A stretch of DNA of 64,000 nucleotides from an uncultured Actinomycetes bacterium (GCA_903843225.1 CAIMOX010000013.1:1-64000); one strand, 5' to 3'. Positions 6,948 to 46,301 are shown, counted from the first letter of the stretch. Made by a program: numbers and translations. The notes: generated from the letters alone by a model not told the origin.

Positions 6948-7820
6948 ATGAAAAAGAAGGTGGACCTTCTTCCGTACTTCTTGGTCTCCCCGTTGATCAT
7001 CTTTATTATCTGCTTAGCGCTGACTCCTGCGGTCTTCACCACCATCGCTGCATTCTTCAAGGTGCAGCCTCTTAATCCGCCAACTCACTTCTCTGGATTA
7101 GAAAACTTCCGGGATATTCTCCATAACGCTGAGGTTCGTTCCAGCCTTGGTAATACCTTCCTTTACATCATTATCGGCGTCACACTTTCTACGGTACTAG
7201 GCATCTTCTTTGCAGTAGTTCTGCAACGTAGGTTTACCGGCCGTTCAATCCTGATTGCGGTATTAATTCTTCCTTGGGCACTCCCCGGAGTCGTCGAAGG
7301 AATTCTTTGGACCGGCATCTGGGATGCTAATACCGGAGTACTAAATAGCGTTTTAAAATCTTTACATGTTATTGATCACTATCAAGTCTTCCTTGGGCAG
7401 AATAAATTCCTAACAATCCTTGCTATTGAGGTGGTCCAGGTCTGGCAAATAACGCCACTCTCCACAATTCTAATCTTGGCAGTCTTACAGAATATTCCTG
7501 ATGATCTCTATGAAGCGGCCACTATCGATGGCAGTGATGCTAAAAAATCATTCCTACATATTACGATGCCATTAATCCGCCCAGGGATAGCGATAGCCGT
7601 GGTTCAAGCGATCATCGCCACGCTAAATATTTTTGATCAGCCGTATATTTTAAATGGCGCAGCATCGACAGGTAACTCCTTAGCGATGGAGACTTATGCA
7701 GTGAGTTTCACAAACTTAAACTTTGGGCAGGGATATGCCCTATCGTTGTTGATCACTCTCTTTACTCTCTTTACCTCCGTCGTCATTGCTAAATTCATCT
7801 ATAAAAAAGTGGAATACTAA
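6948..7820 (+). CDS. Sugar ABC transporter permease, MalF/UgpA type
   Basis: 290 aa membrane protein with six predicted helices and the EAA loop YEAATIDGSDAKKSFLHITMP at about residues 187-207. The ribosome site AAAGGAGG is close to consensus and 9 bases upstream of the ATG. It pairs with the MalG-type permease, whose start overlaps its stop codon, and with the binding protein at 5550-6869. Confidence 0.92.
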   Translation: MKKKVDLLPYFLVSPLIIFIICLALTPAVFTTIAAFFKVQPLNPPTHFSGLENFRDILHNAEVRSSLGNTFLYIIIGVTLSTVLGIFFAVVLQRRFTGRSILIAVLILPWALPGVVEGILWTGIWDANTGVLNSVLKSLHVIDHYQVFLGQNKFLTILAIEVVQVWQITPLSTILILAVLQNIPDDLYEAATIDGSDAKKSFLHITMPLIRPGIAIAVVQAIIATLNIFDQPYILNGAASTGNSLAMETYAVSFTNLNFGQGYALSLLITLFTLFTSVVIAKFIYKKVEY

Positions 7821-38872: not shown

Positions 38873-39669
38873 GCTGTGTGACCTCCTTGTGCAGTAACCC
38901 AAGCATTAAAGTCGGTCTTCGACATTACTGCTCCGTTGGTCTCCATATATGCGTGATAGAGGCCGCAAAGTTCGGCGCACTTCACCTCAATTGCGCCAAC
39001 CATTGTTGGGGTTGTATGAATAACGGTAGTGACCTGAGCATTGGCATCGACTTTAATGCCAAGCTGGACTGGCCAGAATGAGTGGTTTACATCCGCAGAT
39101 TTCACATCGAAGATCACTGGGACTCCGACTGGGAGGTTGAGATCATGCGTCTCAATTCCTTGAGCTGGGTAGTTGAAGGTCCAGAGCCATTGTGACCCAG
39201 TTACTTCAACTGTGATTGCACTCTTGGCATCATTTGCTGCGGCGACTGCTTGTGAGTTCACTTCTAGCAAACCCCAGACGATTGCAACAATGGTGAAAAG
39301 TAATGATCCCACGGTCCACAACACAACAATCGGACCGTTTGTGCGTATCGCTGGGCCATCTGGTGGTGGCGTATCGCCGCGGTGCGCATTGAGGAATGAG
39401 TTGGTAGCTACTGAGAGCACAATGCCGGCAATTGGCGCTGAGATGTAGGTGAACCAGATCATGATCGTTTCAGCTGATTTCATCTCTTTCGACATGATCG
39501 TTGGCATCCACTTTGGATAGAAATACTTGCCGAGGATTATAAAAATCGCTGTATAAGCCACGAATAGCCCGATGGTACGAGCAACATCGTTGCGCTTTAT
39601 GAAGCCGGTTGCACGCTCACCAGGGGTTGGTGGCAATGCTTCTACTGCGTGATCATCATGATTAGCCAT
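38869..39669 (-). CDS. ctaC: Cytochrome c oxidase subunit II
   Basis: 266 aa. Three hydrophobic segments (about 30-50, 65-85, 110-133), then a cupredoxin domain with the full CuA set: CAELCGLYHAYM with Cys-Cys-His-Met, and an upstream His in VNHSFWPVQL. SQWLWTFNYP is the electron-entry Trp region. It takes electrons from cytochrome c to CuA. ATG 39669 is used since GGTGA lies nine bases before it; GTG 39678 is possible. It overlaps the upstream cupredoxin gene by eight bases. Confidence 0.94.
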   Translation of the reverse strand: MANHDDHAVEALPPTPGERATGFIKRNDVARTIGLFVAYTAIFIILGKYFYPKWMPTIMSKEMKSAETIMIWFTYISAPIAGIVLSVATNSFLNAHRGDTPPPDGPAIRTNGPIVVLWTVGSLLFTIVAIVWGLLEVNSQAVAAANDAKSAITVEVTGSQWLWTFNYPAQGIETHDLNLPVGVPVIFDVKSADVNHSFWPVQLGIKVDANAQVTTVIHTTPTMVGAIEVKCAELCGLYHAYMETNGAVMSKTDFNAWVTAQGGHTA

Positions 39670-40408
39670 TGACGACACTCACCTTTCCAGACATAAATCC
39701 GCCTGCGCCCATTACAGCGCCGAACTTGGCATAGGTGCCGTCACCACATGGATATTCACAGTTCCAGACATATTCACCAGCGCCACCAGTAACAAACGAG
39801 AAGACAACGGTGTGTCCTTGGTTGTTTGTTCCTGGATCCTTTGTTGGGATGTTATTTCCTTTGTCATCAGCGACGACGCGAGGAAGTGGAACGTTTACAA
39901 AGAGCGGATCCTGCGTCTGAGTTGGAAGACCATGGAGAGTAAATGTGTGTTGGACATCTGTAGGCAAGATCGAAGCTGCTGCAACACCATCAAATGTTGC
40001 GGTGTTCTCTACGGTGCCAACAACCTTTGCAAAGTAATTCGTGTTCAGATGCTCACCACTGTCATAGACATGCAACGTCATTGTCACGTAAGCGTGAGCC
40101 GGGAGAACGAGATGAGTTGCCGGACCATATGAAGGCCAACCAGGATGCGAGCCACCGTTTGGCCCGTGCGATTTAGAGGCGACTGAATCTGGATAAACAC
40201 CCTCAGTGATGTAGGCATGCTTAAGGTTCTGGCCGTTGTAGTTGATCGTGCCGTTGACACTTGCATACATCTTGGCTTGAGGATCAGCCGAAACTTTATG
40301 CAATGTAAATCCGACTGCACCGACAACTGCTACGCCAAAGAAGAGGAAGGCGATAGCGCTTGCGATGCGCTTACCTCCCGAGACTTCAGTCTGCGTGGAG
40401 ATATCCAC
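39662..40408 (-). CDS. Membrane-anchored cupredoxin-like protein in the oxidase operon
   Basis: 248 aa from GTG 40408 (AAGGA six bases before it; the open frame extends to 40588 but has no better start). One N-terminal anchor (IASAIAFLFFGVAVVGAVGF) precedes an extracytoplasmic beta-rich domain with HLVLPAHAYVTMTLHVYD, VQHTFTLHG and a C-terminal copper-site-like end GEYVWNCEYPCG...GFMSGKVSVV. The two Cys are spaced like CuA (CxxxC) but the His that should follow is absent. It looks like a subunit-II-like or nitrosocyanin/sulfocyanin-like domain. First gene of the cta operon; a copper electron carrier or delivery role is inferred from position. Confidence 0.78.
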   Translation of the reverse strand: MDISTQTEVSGGKRIASAIAFLFFGVAVVGAVGFTLHKVSADPQAKMYASVNGTINYNGQNLKHAYITEGVYPDSVASKSHGPNGGSHPGWPSYGPATHLVLPAHAYVTMTLHVYDSGEHLNTNYFAKVVGTVENTATFDGVAAASILPTDVQHTFTLHGLPTQTQDPLFVNVPLPRVVADDKGNNIPTKDPGTNNQGHTVVFSFVTGGAGEYVWNCEYPCGDGTYAKFGAVMGAGGFMSGKVSVVNG

Positions 40409-40466
40409 TCGATTTCCTTCTTTCTGATCATGTCCTGAGCAAGTCAGGGCCAGCTTTGAGTCAAGA

Positions 40467-40479
40467 TTTCCTGAGGAAA
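40467..40479. promoter_or_regulatory. Perfect palindrome between divergent cta genes
   Basis: TTTCCT-G-AGGAAA, a 13-base perfect odd palindrome in the 179-base gap between the cupredoxin gene (minus) and ctaG (plus). TTGAGTCAA lies just upstream. It may be an operator for both oxidase units or a chance palindrome. Confidence 0.3.
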
Positions 40480-40587
40480 GGCTACGCTCTCTCCGTACAA
40501 CTGGATAGCCATTACTCCTCATTATTTGTATCTTTTTCATAACGGCTGCACGAGAGAGTGCGCCACAGAGAGTAGGTCTAGAGTTCA

Positions 40588-41370
40588 ATGAAATTAAGCC
40601 CGATCTGGGATATCGCCTTCGGGCTCACCCTCGCCACCATCACTTACTGGTACTTTGCTGAGAATCGAAAGCAGAGGACAGTCTCTCTCACTCGGCAGAT
40701 TCTCTTCTACCTCGCCATCACCTTGATGGCGATCATTCTGGTTGGCCCAGTCCCGCACAAGGCGGTGAATACCTTCTGGATTCATATGATCCAACACATC
40801 CTTCTGATGATGCTGATCTCCCCCCTTATCGTTCTGGGGTCGCCCTTCAAACTTCTGCTCTCCTCAACTAACTCTCAGGCAGGCCGTCTCGGTGCTGTGC
40901 TGGCCCGGAACATCCTTGTCCGACAACTCTTTAAGGCTGAGGTTGGTTTCGGAATTTTCTTGACGGTTTTAGTCCTCACTCACTTCTCACCGCTTGCCAA
41001 TGCAGGAATGCAGAATTCAAATATCCACTCCCTTGAGTTGATTCTCTTCTTAGTGGGGGGCGTGATCTATTACTACCCGGTGATTGAGGGTAACCCGCAG
41101 CCGTATCCCGTTCCTTATTCAAAGCGAGTTCTCTCACTCTTTGCCATGATGTTGCCTGAAACTATGACGGGCTTCTTCTTGTACTCCGGTAATCGTGTTC
41201 TCCATTCACTTCCACACCACACTTCGATGTCGATGGGGCTAAAGGATCAACACACTGGCGGCGCAATTATGTGGGCGATGGGAATGTTGATCGACTCAAT
41301 GTGGATAGTCTTAGCCGCTCGAGATTGGTTTGAGAATGAAAGATTATTAGCGGAGGCGGAAGATGAGTAA
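40588..41370 (+). CDS. ctaG: Cytochrome c oxidase assembly factor CtaG (caa3_CtaG type)
   Basis: 260 aa polytopic membrane protein with about seven helices. The family pattern is visible in NTFWIHMIQHILLMMLISPLIVLGSPF with paired His, HFSPLANAGMQNSNIHSLEL, PHHTSMSMGLKDQHTGGAIMWAMG. It assists assembly of the oxidase copper centre in Gram-positive bacteria. The gene is divergent from the cupredoxin-ctaC-D-E operon. Its stop region overlaps the start of the small gene at 41363 by eight bases. Confidence 0.9.
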   Translation: MKLSPIWDIAFGLTLATITYWYFAENRKQRTVSLTRQILFYLAITLMAIILVGPVPHKAVNTFWIHMIQHILLMMLISPLIVLGSPFKLLLSSTNSQAGRLGAVLARNILVRQLFKAEVGFGIFLTVLVLTHFSPLANAGMQNSNIHSLELILFLVGGVIYYYPVIEGNPQPYPVPYSKRVLSLFAMMLPETMTGFFLYSGNRVLHSLPHHTSMSMGLKDQHTGGAIMWAMGMLIDSMWIVLAARDWFENERLLAEAEDE

Positions 41371-41647: not shown

Positions 41648-42769
41648 GTGTTGCAAATATCGAGCCTCAGTACTGAAGTTCTCTTCTGGGCGATTGCACT
41701 TATCACCTTAGTACTTACTGTCTTTTTTTGGCACAAACTAACCCCACAAAAGTGGTACCACATCACCGCACGAGTGAGCGTCATCATTTTTATTCAGATA
41801 TTTGCTCTTGCTGCAACTGGAGTAACAATCAACCGTGCTGGACAATTCTATGCAAGTTGGGGAGACCTCTTTGGAAGTAAGAACCAGCTCGCAAAGATTG
41901 CTATTCAGCCAGATCTCTTGGCTCAGATTTCTTCTAAAGATATTAGTGGTGCGAAGAAGACCGCTGGTGGAAGCCTTATCTTTAAAGAAGTTATCAAAGG
42001 TGCGCACTCAAATATTTCAGATGTGGTCTATGTGGTTTTGCCACCGAAGATTGCAACTCAGCTCTTGGCCAATCCTGATGCCCCAACAATCGGTAATGAT
42101 TATCAAGTAGTCGAACTCTTCTCGGGATACCCGGGAGTTCCGCAGACTTGGATCGGTAGTATGGCCGGAATTACAACTCTTGAGAATCTTGAAAATATCG
42201 GCACAGTTCAGAACACAATCGTTGTGATTCCAGCGATCAACGTCGCGCCGGGCCAGGATACAGAGTGCCTTAATCTCGTTGGTGGACCTCAAGTTGAAAC
42301 CTGGATCACCTCCGATATGCACGAATTTGCAACCCGGTTTATCGGAGTTGATTCTCGTAAGTGGTCGACTTTTGGTTATTCAACTGGTGGTTGGTGCGCG
42401 GCAGAGGCAGCAATCCATCACCCTGACCTGTATTCAAGCGCCGTAGCTCTTGCAGGCTACTTCAAGCCACTCTTCTCCATTGGTGTGCCAAAGAGTGAGA
42501 AGAATTATTACGCCAATCAATATGATCTGATTAAAGCGCTTAAGAGTCAGCCAACAACTGTTCGCTTAATGATTATCGCCAGCCAGAAAGATAAATTTAC
42601 TAACACAGCCGCGCAAGATTTTATGAGAGCGGCAAAGTCACTTATTCCGATTCGCTATGTACCAATCCCAAACGGTGGACATAACACCAATGTTTGGAAA
42701 CCCTTTGTTGGTACTGCCTTTCAATGGATCAACCAAGGTAATCAGCAGGCTCTACCGACTACCCCTTAG
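41648..42769 (+). CDS. Membrane-anchored alpha/beta-hydrolase esterase
   Basis: 373 aa. Two N-terminal hydrophobic segments (about 10-28 and 40-60) anchor an extracytoplasmic esterase of the putative-esterase/mycolyltransferase-like family. The nucleophile elbow is GYSTGGW; the catalytic His is probably in NGGHNTNVW, and Asp in ASQKDKF. Esterases of this group act on polyester, sugar esters or wall lipids. GTG start 41648 is set by the -10 box five bases before it. A small shared hairpin separates it from the convergent MprF-like gene. Confidence 0.83.
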   Translation: MLQISSLSTEVLFWAIALITLVLTVFFWHKLTPQKWYHITARVSVIIFIQIFALAATGVTINRAGQFYASWGDLFGSKNQLAKIAIQPDLLAQISSKDISGAKKTAGGSLIFKEVIKGAHSNISDVVYVVLPPKIATQLLANPDAPTIGNDYQVVELFSGYPGVPQTWIGSMAGITTLENLENIGTVQNTIVVIPAINVAPGQDTECLNLVGGPQVETWITSDMHEFATRFIGVDSRKWSTFGYSTGGWCAAEAAIHHPDLYSSAVALAGYFKPLFSIGVPKSEKNYYANQYDLIKALKSQPTTVRLMIIASQKDKFTNTAAQDFMRAAKSLIPIRYVPIPNGGHNTNVWKPFVGTAFQWINQGNQQALPTTP

Positions 42770-42787
42770 TCGCTAATTTTTTAGTGA
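42770..42787. terminator. Possible short bidirectional terminator
   Basis: TCGCTAA-TTTT-TTAGTGA: seven-base stem (one G-U pair) between the convergent stops of the esterase and MprF-like genes; it overlaps the end of the latter. Short but flanked by T and A. Confidence 0.4.
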
Positions 42788-44449
42788 TTTTGAGCGGAAG
42801 CTGCCGATGAACTGTTCTGCACGAATCGCTGCCCAACCAATCTTTGCAACATCCGTCGCCTTTGGATAGACCAAGTAACGAGTCTGCCACTCCGGATCAA
42901 ACTTCGCATTGAAGCGGTAGAGCGATTCCACTTGGAAGAAGTTAGAGAATAGACGAATCAAATTTCGACTTCCGCGAGTAATCGGACCAGCGCTGATCTT
43001 CTCCGCGCGTTCGAAGAGTGATCGAAAGGCGGCAAAATTAAGTGAGATGTTTTCGATCTTATTCTCTTTCGCCCACTCAGCTGTCTGCACAATCAGAAGT
43101 TCATTGATCCCAGCATCAGTCCCGCGCTCTCGTTGCATGCGATCAAGTGAGAGGCCATCATCTGACCAGGGTACAAAGTAGAGCAAGCCTTTGATCTGAT
43201 TGCCCACCTTTGCAATCGTGATGATGCAATCGTCATCAATATCTGATCCGAAACGATCAAGTGACATAGAGAAGCCACGCTCCGGTGCGCCATAACGCCA
43301 CTTCTTTGCAAGGCTTCGAAGTTCGCGCTTTGTAGCCTCATCGAGATTAACCCAGCGAGTTGTGTGAGCTTCGTAGCCTTTGCGCTTGATGCGATTTACC
43401 ATCTGGCGAACATTCGCCATGGGGCGGCCTTCGAGCGTGAAGTCCTTCACTTTAATAATTGCTTCATCACCGATATCAAAGGCGGTCATACCAGCATGCT
43501 CAACCCAAACTTCACCACCGCGATCACTCGCACCCATTACGGCCGGCGTCCAAGCGTGTAAACGAGCTTCTTCAAGGAAGAGGTCAATTGCATCTGCCCA
43601 GAGGCTGTATTCCCCAAAGGGATCACCACTTGCGAGCATGACACCACCCTGAACACGATAAGCGATTCCCGCCTTCTTGTTAGGAGTCCAGATCACGCTC
43701 TTATCGCGGCGCGTAGCGAAGTAACCTAGAGAATCTTGTTCACCATCGTGTTTGATGAGCTTACGTACAACTGCAACATCTTCATTGGTCATCTTTGGCA
43801 GAGGTGTGACTCGTCTAAAGAAGAGGAAGAGTGGAATCACAATAGTAAAAATTCCAAGTGTGGCGAGACTAAATTCAGCGGTATCGGAGACGCGTTGGTT
43901 AACGAATTCAACGGGACCCGAAACCCCAATCATTCCCTCGATAACAGTCAAGAAGACATTCTTAAAGCTGGGGTTGCCAACGAGCTGATGCCCGTGACGG
44001 TAATAGATCATCAGTAGGCCAGCGATGATGGTGAAGGAGAGAATAATAATAAAGGCGTAAATGGGTTGATTGCGTGTTGATGGATCTGAGATTGCGTAGA
44101 ACTCTTTACGTAGTAGTAGCAAAACCACTAAAAGAATAGAGTTAGAAAGAATCTGAATGGGATGATGATGAATTCGAAAAATATCCGAGATCAAATTGAG
44201 AGCAAGTACCAGAACTGTGATGTTCCAGGCTCGGCGTTTTCTACGTCCTAAGCCACGGGCGACGAGAATGAGAACGAGTGATGTAAAGAGCGCAGTAGAG
44301 AAGGCAGTTGAATTAATAAGAGTGGGCAGATATTTATCAATCCGGTGTGCTACCGGTTGAAACTTTCGGAAGATATTCGCAGAAAGGTTCAGAAGGCCCA
44401 AGAGAAAGGTAAGCCGGCCAAGCCAGCGTGGAATGTCGAAGCGTCGCAT
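42773..44449 (-). CDS. MprF-like phosphatidylglycerol aminoacyltransferase (DUF2156)
   Basis: 558 aa. The N-terminal part has about six membrane helices (to about residue 215); the C-terminal part is the GNAT-fold LPG-synthase domain: GYFATRRDKSVIWTPNKKAGIAYRVQGGVMLASGDPFG, ANVRQMVNRIKRKGYEAHTTRW, ISLNFAAFRSLFERAEK. It would transfer lysine or another amino acid from tRNA to phosphatidylglycerol and thus change envelope charge. There is no lysyl-tRNA synthetase fusion as in mycobacterial LysX. Third gene of an operon; its ATG overlaps the stop of the beta-propeller gene. Confidence 0.87.
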   Translation of the reverse strand: MRRFDIPRWLGRLTFLLGLLNLSANIFRKFQPVAHRIDKYLPTLINSTAFSTALFTSLVLILVARGLGRRKRRAWNITVLVLALNLISDIFRIHHHPIQILSNSILLVVLLLLRKEFYAISDPSTRNQPIYAFIIILSFTIIAGLLMIYYRHGHQLVGNPSFKNVFLTVIEGMIGVSGPVEFVNQRVSDTAEFSLATLGIFTIVIPLFLFFRRVTPLPKMTNEDVAVVRKLIKHDGEQDSLGYFATRRDKSVIWTPNKKAGIAYRVQGGVMLASGDPFGEYSLWADAIDLFLEEARLHAWTPAVMGASDRGGEVWVEHAGMTAFDIGDEAIIKVKDFTLEGRPMANVRQMVNRIKRKGYEAHTTRWVNLDEATKRELRSLAKKWRYGAPERGFSMSLDRFGSDIDDDCIITIAKVGNQIKGLLYFVPWSDDGLSLDRMQRERGTDAGINELLIVQTAEWAKENKIENISLNFAAFRSLFERAEKISAGPITRGSRNLIRLFSNFFQVESLYRFNAKFDPEWQTRYLVYPKATDVAKIGWAAIRAEQFIGSFRSKSLKN

Positions 44450-45588
44450 TATCTAAATACTCCTGTGTGGCCAAGTGAATACCTGCCCGGTTGGGGGTAG
44501 ATGGCTAGCCCGTGAGGCTCTCTTCCAACCTTGATACTACGCAAGAACTTGCCATGGACGATATCAAATACATAGACGACATTGTTATAGCGGCCTGATA
44601 CCCAGAACTGAGTGCCGTCAGCGCTTATGCCACCCATATCAGGGCTGCCATTACCCGGGATCTTCCACTTGGCGATCAGTGCGTTATCACTGAAACGAAG
44701 TACTGAAACTGAACCTTCGCCGCGGTTGGTGATCAAGAGCGTTTTGGAATCGCGTGTGACATAGAGGCCATGTGCAGCTTTACCAGTCTTGATCAAAGTA
44801 AATGAACCCACTCGATCAGCCTTCATCACCCAGACGCCATCAGACATCATGTCCGCGATATAAAAAGTAGATCCATCTGGCGAAATTTTTACATCTTGTG
44901 GCATTGGCGTCTTACTTCCACTCATACCTGCCATAGCCGGAATCTTTGGCAACTTCATAACTTTTTCAATCTTCATAGCCTCGGTATTAATCCAGAGCAG
45001 TTGGCCACTGAATTCACAACTCACTAGGAAGTGATTGCCATCCTTGGTCCAATCAGCGTGATTTACACCTGAGCATGGAACATTCACAACCTTCTTGATC
45101 GCCATCGTATGCGGATCCCGGAAGACAATCTGCTTGTCGGATTCAGCCATGACGACTGCGTACTTGCCGTTAGGAGTGAAATAAAGATTATAAGGATCGT
45201 GAACCGAGACTGGCTTACCAGCGAGCCCAGTCATGGGATCAATCGGAGTTAAATAGTTACCGGCGTTGTTATTCACCCACAGTGTTTTGAGATCCCAAGA
45301 CGGCACAACATGTTGTGGGCCAGCCTTCATCTTGATTGTACGAATAATTTTAAATGTCCTTGGATCAATCTCAGTAAGAGTATTTGATGTGTGGTTTGGT
45401 ACATAAACGCGCTCTGGAAAGTTTGCTACAACCGGGGAAAGTTGGTTAGGTCGATCGGCTGAGTAGATATCATTTTGATCGAGAACAGGAGGCATGCCTG
45501 CAAGCGGAGTTGTCGCAGATACACCTGTAAAGATAAATGGTGTCACGGCGAGAAATGTCACCGTTGAAATGATCTTCTTGTACTTCAT
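44449..45588 (-). CDS. Secreted YncE-like beta-propeller protein
   Basis: 379 aa. The signal peptide (TVTFLAVTPFIFTGVSA) leads into seven-blade YVTN/YncE-type repeats: RVYVPNHTSNTLTEIDPRTF, TLWVNNNAGNYLTPIDPMTG, GKYAVVMAESDKQIVF, TFYIADMMSDGVWVMKADR, LLITNRGEGSVSVLRF, QFWVSGRYNNVVYVFDIVHG. No catalytic residues or heme motif are seen; several His and Met (MSGSKTPM) might bind metal. It is sandwiched by overlap between a CE4-type protein and an MprF-like enzyme, so it probably serves the same envelope process. Function unknown. Confidence 0.82.
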   Translation of the reverse strand: MKYKKIISTVTFLAVTPFIFTGVSATTPLAGMPPVLDQNDIYSADRPNQLSPVVANFPERVYVPNHTSNTLTEIDPRTFKIIRTIKMKAGPQHVVPSWDLKTLWVNNNAGNYLTPIDPMTGLAGKPVSVHDPYNLYFTPNGKYAVVMAESDKQIVFRDPHTMAIKKVVNVPCSGVNHADWTKDGNHFLVSCEFSGQLLWINTEAMKIEKVMKLPKIPAMAGMSGSKTPMPQDVKISPDGSTFYIADMMSDGVWVMKADRVGSFTLIKTGKAAHGLYVTRDSKTLLITNRGEGSVSVLRFSDNALIAKWKIPGNGSPDMGGISADGTQFWVSGRYNNVVYVFDIVHGKFLRSIKVGREPHGLAIYPQPGRYSLGHTGVFR

Positions 45589-46301
45589 CAGATAGTTCCG
45601 AGCATTGTTGAGAGCGTGACAGGAGTTAGGCCCTTTGATCGTAGCTGGGTAATGATTGTCGGTAGAGCATCAATTGTGTCTTGATGGCCGAAGTGCAGAC
45701 TCACGATGCTGCCATTTTTAACCGAGTTCATGACATTTTTGATAACTACGGCCTTGCCGACATCTTGGTAATCATGTGAATCGACATCGTAGGAGATACA
45801 TTTCTTATAGCCATACTTCAGTGCCGTTTTACGAATAAGTGGGGTTGAGTATTGAGTGCCAGATGGGCGGAAGAACTTTCCGTGGTTTCCGATGAGCGAG
45901 ACCAACTCGTTAGCACAGCCTGAAATTTCTGACTCTAATTTTTTAGCAGTCAGTGTTTTGCTCTGAAGGTGATTCATTGTGTGGTTTCCAAGATCGTGGC
46001 CATCGCCCAGAATCTGTTTGGCGATTGTGTTATCAGCCTTGAGCCAAGCGCCAACAGCGAAGACGGTCACAGGTGTCTGGGAGCTTTTCAAGATTGCGAG
46101 GAGTTTCTGAGCCATCACCGGGTCGCCAGCGCCGTGGAAGGTGAGCGCAACATGCGGGGCTGAGCGCGAACCATGCGAGATATCTGGAGTCGCCGCGAGC
46201 GCAGCAGGAATATCACCGAGCAACCCAAAGAGAGCTCCTGCAGCCCCAATCCCGAGGAATTTTCTACGCGTGAGATGGGAGTGGCTGCGAGGATTGGTCA
46301 T
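45588..46301 (-). CDS. CE4-like polysaccharide deacetylase with altered motif 1
   Basis: 237 aa. It carries a twin-arginine-type signal (TRRKFLGIGAAGALFGLLG) and a NodB-fold domain. Motif 2 HTMNH (107-111) keeps the metal His pair, but motif 1, normally TFDDG, reads TFHGAGD (54-60), so the catalytic-base and metal Asp positions are changed; motif 3 is FRPSGTQYS. A TAAGAT -10 box lies six bases before ATG 46301. Either it is a divergent active subfamily that uses Asp60, or a non-catalytic binder. First gene of the operon with the beta-propeller and MprF-like genes. Confidence 0.85.
   Translation of the reverse strand: MTNPRSHSHLTRRKFLGIGAAGALFGLLGDIPAALAATPDISHGSRSAPHVALTFHGAGDPVMAQKLLAILKSSQTPVTVFAVGAWLKADNTIAKQILGDGHDLGNHTMNHLQSKTLTAKKLESEISGCANELVSLIGNHGKFFRPSGTQYSTPLIRKTALKYGYKKCISYDVDSHDYQDVGKAVVIKNVMNSVKNGSIVSLHFGHQDTIDALPTIITQLRSKGLTPVTLSTMLGTI

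Follow-up and report, generated by a model that had tools for sequence, protein, structure and literature searches.

A conserved pair of an altered CE4 protein and an exported beta-propeller in actinobacteria, joined to an aminoacyl-lipid synthase gene in one genus

Deacetylases of the CE4/NodB fold, such as Bc1960 and SpPgdA, carry in their motifs (MT1 to MT5) a tandem Asp that provides the catalytic base and a metal ligand, an HxxxH metal pair, an Arg, an Asp and a His, and the second Pro of the MT3 RPP stretch is the 2-hydroxyproline site of ordinary CE4 enzymes (PMC10967932). SwsB (YlxY, P50850) of Bacillus subtilis is a base-less CE4 protein that acts as a metal-independent muramic-lactam cyclase (PMC12444981). 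On the side of the lipids, AlaDAGS of Corynebacterium glutamicum makes alanyl-diacylglycerol, and a pesT-alaDAGS double mutant is described as being without the genes for alanyl-diacylglycerol and alanyl-phosphatidylglycerol (PMC10580965). Here, we describe a locus at 42773-46301 in a stretch of 64,000 nucleotides from an uncultured Actinomycetes bacterium (GCA_903843225.1, CAIMOX010000013.1:1-64000; hereafter the window), in which the genes for an altered CE4 protein, an exported beta-propeller and an aminoacyl-lipid synthase touch one another, and we report that the first two form the unit that is conserved.

All three genes lie on the minus strand. The CE4/NodB-fold protein of the TFHG class (45588-46301, 237 aa, open reading frame call) is followed by the seven-bladed, YNCE-like propeller with the tail PQPGRYSLGHTGxxR (44449-45588, 379 aa, likewise called as an open reading frame) and by the synthase (42773-44449, 558 aa), which has an LPG_synthase_C domain and an N-terminal membrane region. 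The CE4 stop and the propeller start overlap by one base at 45588 (TGATG, 45586-45590), and the propeller stop and the synthase start by one base at 44449 (TAATG, 44447-44451). The Pfam E-values were 8.7e-20 for the CE4 protein (Polysacc_deac_1, PF01522), 9.8e-22 for the propeller (YNCE) and 1.4e-78 for the synthase (LPG_synthase_C). An earlier note on this DNA had described three touching genes, a CE4 protein with TFHGAGD in place of TFDDG, a Tat-type signal and an intact MT2 His pair, and a signal peptide on the propeller. All of this was confirmed: the gene order recurs across the genus, the CE4 protein begins with the twin-arginine signal LTRRKFLGIG and contains the motifs ALTFHGAGDP and NHTMNH, and the propeller carries a Sec-type signal. 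The genome to which the window belongs has 1.35 Mb, is 99.9% complete, contains no other CE4 protein and is probably that of a streamlined planktonic actinobacterium.

The survey of 297 genomes of the class (CE4 E <= 1e-28, propeller E <= 1e-45, counts not corrected for kinship) revealed the CE4 protein in 52 and the propeller in 66 genomes, with both present in 49, which corresponds to an odds ratio of 219. The two genes were located within 3 kb of each other in 38 class genomes and as a tandem of CE4 and then propeller in 29. The tandem was also found in 68 of 80 named loci, mostly from Streptomyces and also from Actinomadura, Micromonospora, Rugosimonospora, Amycolatopsis, Pseudonocardia and Terrabacter, and the overlap amounted to 4 bases in the three loci inspected (L094, L096 of S. 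lavendulae, and L111). Genomes of 7-11 Mb possess the pair too. The real conserved unit is the CE4-propeller pair and not the triplet, as the earlier note had assumed: in the CE4-holding class genomes, a synthase beside the pair or its CE4 gene was not found outside the genus, except in one metagenome-assembled genome (L133) and as a distant homologue in G155. A third conserved neighbour of the pair was considered among the L,D-transpeptidase, the enoyl-CoA hydratase and the HATPase-domain protein that are encoded upstream in many Streptomyces, and was rejected, since none was seen to be kept outside that group.

Alignment to CE4 structures places ALTFHGAGD over ALTFDDGPx, with a His at the position of the catalytic-base Asp and a Gly at that of the metal Asp. 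Among 132 distinct TFHG-class sequences (window numbering), both residues of the MT1 tandem Asp are replaced, by H56 in 130 and by G57 in 128 sequences, and the metal pair of MT2 is intact in all of them (H107 and H111, each 132/132). The Arg of MT3 (R145-P-S147) is likewise invariant, as is the Ser that takes the place of the second Pro, the hydroxyproline site (R145 and S147, 132/132 each). The MT4 residues are D174 and D177, the latter being present in 132/132, and the MT5 residue H203 is found in 130/132. The earlier note had suggested Asp60 as a substitute for the lost metal ligand. Of the 132 sequences, 112 have D at position 60 and the others S, E, P, T or N, and because this position varies even within the genus, Asp60 does not replace the metal ligand. 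Invariant MT2, MT3 and MT4 residues combined with near-invariant substituted residues do not form the pattern of relaxed catalysis, and judging from these alignments we read the TFHG protein as a changed rather than a decaying enzyme, while a role in binding only is possible.

Asp at position 56 was seen solely in L143 and L161 (CE4 gene at about 7001-7582), where the MT5 His has also gone, being replaced by Ser, and no propeller gene is adjacent. Two catalytic positions change there in correlated fashion, and L143 is placed well inside the TFHG clade. At two loci of one family, a canonical CE4 gene (ALTIDDGY; L181:8832-9704 and L182:7232-8122) adjoins the TFHG CE4 gene, possibly as a couple of deacetylase and second-step enzyme; no canonical CE4 neighbour of a TFHG CE4 was found beyond these two loci.

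In the CE4 tree, the TFHG proteins form one clade with a support of 100/99 on a long stem of 1.56 changes per column. AlphaFold predicts a confident NodB fold, which is nearest to Bc1960 (Foldseek E 9.8e-19, TM score 0.85 by target). The fold, the MT2 His pair, the MT3 Arg, the MT4 Asp and the MT5 His are shared with Bc1960 and SpPgdA, whereas the window protein differs from these deacetylases in the His at the base, the Gly at the metal Asp and the Ser at the hydroxyproline site. With SwsB it has in common the CE4 fold, an MT1 base position that is naturally altered and the retained MT5 His. However, SwsB has an Asn at the base, has lost the MT3 Arg and possesses an extra N-terminal domain, while the window protein has a His at the base, has lost the metal Asp as well, keeps the Arg and lacks the extra domain. 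Because the substitutions differ, the likeness to SwsB is, by analogy, a parallel and not a membership. The best NCBIfam match was the PdaB type of CE4 proteins (TIGR02764), whose score of 128.8 bits is far under the cut-off of 237.4; PdaB proteins belong to sporulating Bacillota and, as far as searched, are not paired with this propeller. No paper on a TFHG CE4 protein or on a CE4-propeller pair was found in the literature searched. The proposal of a distinct CE4 subclass, absent from this literature, is supported.

The earlier note had attributed no known active site to the propeller, and here our results differ. About 70 columns are invariant in 48 propeller sequences, among them H93, N134, H177, D232, H273, D317 and H359, which are situated at the beginning of innermost strands or close to it. 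Judging by these strand positions, the H/N/D residues are expected to encircle the opening of the central channel in the predicted structure, where they would form a conserved rim. Also invariant are C191-E-F and the tail PQPGRYSLGHTG, and C172 is nearly so. The AlphaFold model (pLDDT 90.5) has 27 strands, consistent with seven blades, and the structures that it matches are YVTN and surface-layer propellers of a generic kind (PDB 1l0q, 3vgz). Fold and repeat type are those of the YncE/YVTN and surface-layer propellers, from which the window propeller differs by its own invariant residues and tail. Assignments to the L-NosZ, lactonase, YncE or PQQ-associated families were rejected with scores far under the cut-offs (38.4 bits against 400 for YncE, NF052280; 72 bits against 700 for L-NosZ, NF052460). 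The conservation points to a strongly conserved candidate site in the propeller.

The propeller is not confined to actinobacteria. The search of a plasmid collection for this family yielded ten Pseudomonadota records, five of them from P. fungorum, with propellers that are 45-50% identical to the window propeller and have the same motifs and tail. In 10/10 records, the coordinates place an exported-type protein of the creatininase family (PF02633) directly upstream of the propeller (for example L251:5038-7089, L252:4009-6059, L253:4045-6035, L255:3010-5059 and L256:3010-5059). The hosts are Burkholderia, Paraburkholderia and Rhizobium, and several of the plasmid loci lie among heavy-metal genes. 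Compared with creatininase, this partner has Ser at His36, His at Asp45 and apparently Gln at Glu122, which we take to be the numbering of the creatininase metal ligands. Like the CE4 protein, it is an exported amidohydrolase fold encoded directly upstream of the propeller with a metal-site Asp changed to His; unlike the CE4 protein, it has an unrelated fold, belongs to another phylum and is surrounded by heavy-metal genes on several plasmids. One propeller family is, as far as sequence comparison tells, associated with two unrelated amidohydrolase-fold partners, in each of which an active-site Asp has become His. A creatininase partner in Actinomycetota was considered and rejected, since only unrelated distant matches in one family were obtained. 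The literature searched contained no paper on the creatininase-fold-propeller pairing. In either partner, acidic metal ligands are lost and a His has appeared at a metal-site or catalytic Asp, which suggests convergent recruitment. We tentatively put forward that the propeller with the PQPGRYSLGHTG tail might be the invariable component of a so far undescribed, exported and amidase-like system of two proteins in Actinomycetota and Pseudomonadota, for which the TFHG CE4 and the creatininase-fold protein would have been convergently recruited to one same reaction, possibly lactam or cyclic-amide chemistry.

The third gene of the window locus encodes a stand-alone LPG_synthase_C protein, the sole PF09924 protein of the genome. 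A bifunctional MprF or a LysX fusion was considered for it and rejected. The protein has neither an N-terminal flippase domain nor a LysRS domain, scores 206 bits with the MprF flippase/synthase model (NF033480, cut-off 600, aligned from model position 325) and 444 bits with the LysX model (NF002821, cut-off 742, positions 25-572 of 1102), and lies outside the LysRS-fusion clade of the synthase tree. Convergent with it and ending four bases from its end is the gene for a putative membrane-anchored esterase (PF00756, 41648-42769, plus strand) with the nucleophile motif GYSTGG, which had been left outside the locus of the earlier note. The synthase belongs with this esterase, because PF00756-type homologues of the esterase adjoin relatives of the synthase in other actinobacterial families. 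The arrangement of AlaDAGS/PesT in C. glutamicum was found here as well, namely a stand-alone membrane and LPG_synthase_C protein beside a putative esterase; however, the window esterase gene is convergent. In their arrangement, synthase and esterase match this known module, and a role in alanylation may be assumed. From work of Smith et al. of 2015, the esterase is said to be needed for alanyl-phosphatidylglycerol. The synthase was detected in 133/297 class genomes.

In the triplet, the old exported pair has been joined to the known lipid module, essentially in this genus. Of 31 further genomes of the genus, 26 contain a match to the CE4 protein, and the remaining five are 62-86% complete. 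In the loci fetched, CE4, propeller and synthase are collinear wherever the contig spans all three, with synthase contacts of 1 or 4 bases; an exception is L042, in which the synthase was lost. Several genus loci have another gene in place of the esterase. At L036:1573-3009, L038:857-2293, L034:3674-5128 and L044:6335-7768, an IMPDH-like CBS protein adjoins the synthase at this position (Pfam-checked in L036, assigned by size and position in the other three). The earlier note had named absence of the triplet from sister genera as evidence against its reading, and such absence was largely observed: most of the sister-genus genomes examined have none of the three genes, and one sister genus has the synthase in several genomes. 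In G320, the synthase stands beside a TPR-SpoU-DacB block (L187) with no CE4 gene there, and the CE4 gene is located elsewhere with no propeller (L186). In L133, labelled Streptomycetaceae, the CE4 gene adjoins the synthase gene and there is no propeller; both the CE4 tree and the synthase tree group L133 with the window genus. In another actinobacterial family, the locus L180:5680-9505 (G155) repeats the order of CE4, propeller and LPG_synthase_C gene with a distant homologue as the last, which begins about 36 bases past the propeller, and in another class of the phylum an esterase-synthase pair is divergent from a propeller gene (L211:1287-7254, G431).

We consider it an even chance that two old envelope modules were fused at this locus, the exported CE4-propeller pair and the aminoacyl-lipid module. 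CE4 protein and propeller would most likely act on one envelope substrate, the propeller binding the substrate or a metal and the CE4 protein carrying out a non-canonical amide reaction. This reaction might be metal-independent, like that of the lactam cyclase SwsB, or might use a His-rich metal site with His56 standing in for the lost Asp. In the other module, diacylglycerol or phosphatidylglycerol would receive an amino acid, probably alanine, that the membrane synthase takes over from tRNA, with the esterase as the further component. Since the synthase gene is the last one of the CE4-propeller operon in the genus, the three proteins would be made together, and glycan and lipid charge may be coupled. 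Several points weigh against the fusion of two modules as proposed. SwsB has lost the MT3 Arg, which the TFHG class keeps, and needs a substrate deacetylated beforehand, for which the window genome with no other CE4 has no obvious supplier. For the propeller, the partnership is not obligate, since 17 class genomes and members of other classes have it without this CE4 protein. In three genomes of the same family (G034, G270, G296), the synthase was detected with neither CE4 nor propeller at the thresholds used. Finally, the CE4 protein could be a non-catalytic binding protein. It would then be a pseudoenzyme that retains the NodB fold and the sugar-binding groove and, together with the propeller, makes up an envelope complex with a structural or sensory role. 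This fits the loss of both MT1 aspartates and has precedents among CE4 proteins in BA3943, so described in the PDB and among the closest folds, and in Ba0150, which has been termed inert (PMC10967932). We regard it as possible and rather doubtful, given that all 132 sequences keep the MT2 His pair, the MT3 Arg and the MT4 Asp, that the MT5 His and the substituted residues are nearly invariant, and that the sole two D56 sequences also lack H203 and a propeller neighbour. A working hydrolytic deacetylase, with His56 as third metal ligand, another residue as base and the propeller as substrate-binding partner, appears fairly unlikely with the canonical-type base missing and a Ser at the hydroxyproline site, even though H107, H111 and H56 could in principle make a three-His site for which G57 gives room, the rim histidines of the propeller could hold a metal, and a His has also appeared at a metal-Asp position of the Burkholderia partner.

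Two further explanations concern the contact with the synthase. The earlier note had favoured a dedicated system of all three genes for a joint change of glycan and lipid charge, and of this the exported genes, the coupled triplet and the CE4 subclass stand, whereas the triplet as a unit and the Asp60 ligand do not. The short contacts kept across the genus, the loci of G155 and G431, and the presence of the synthase in 46/49 genomes with CE4 and propeller compared to 87/248 others (not corrected for kinship) argue for such a system. However, the pair is without the synthase nearly everywhere, and the synthase elsewhere accompanies its esterase. The synthases of L180 and L211 may be separate or chance associations, because they are 28-29% identical on very long branches of the synthase tree, and we judge a dedicated system to be improbable. 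Genome streamlining might instead have pushed unrelated envelope genes together, as the small genome and the sister-genus synthase already at this place, by TPR and SpoU genes without the pair (L187), would suggest. Streamlining would account for the synthase contact alone, since the CE4-propeller pair is found in large genomes as well, and it is considered here as a doubtful explanation of the locus.

The CE4-propeller pair is the part worth pursuing. It is improbable that a CE4 subclass which is consistently rewritten, conserved over the entire class and the sole CE4 of a minimal genome should be junk, yet the papers searched describe no function for it. The pair bears on the question whether CE4 proteins that lack the base are alternative enzymes, like SwsB, more often than they are dead ones. 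A constant propeller together with a parallel-changed, unrelated hydrolase fold in another phylum gives a concrete handle on the amide or lactam question.

Where the esterase and synthase genes converge, a terminator-like stem-loop between them (42756-42772, plus strand) matches the consensus alone, with a total not above that of shuffled sequences. The promoter scan at the locus gave a score under those of shuffles, and the Rfam scan of 40-50 kb in the window gave no match. Elsewhere in the window, at 39662-40588 (minus strand), an exported-looking protein with no Pfam match is encoded beside cytochrome oxidase subunit II, and it has a possibly metal-binding CxxxC stretch near its end.

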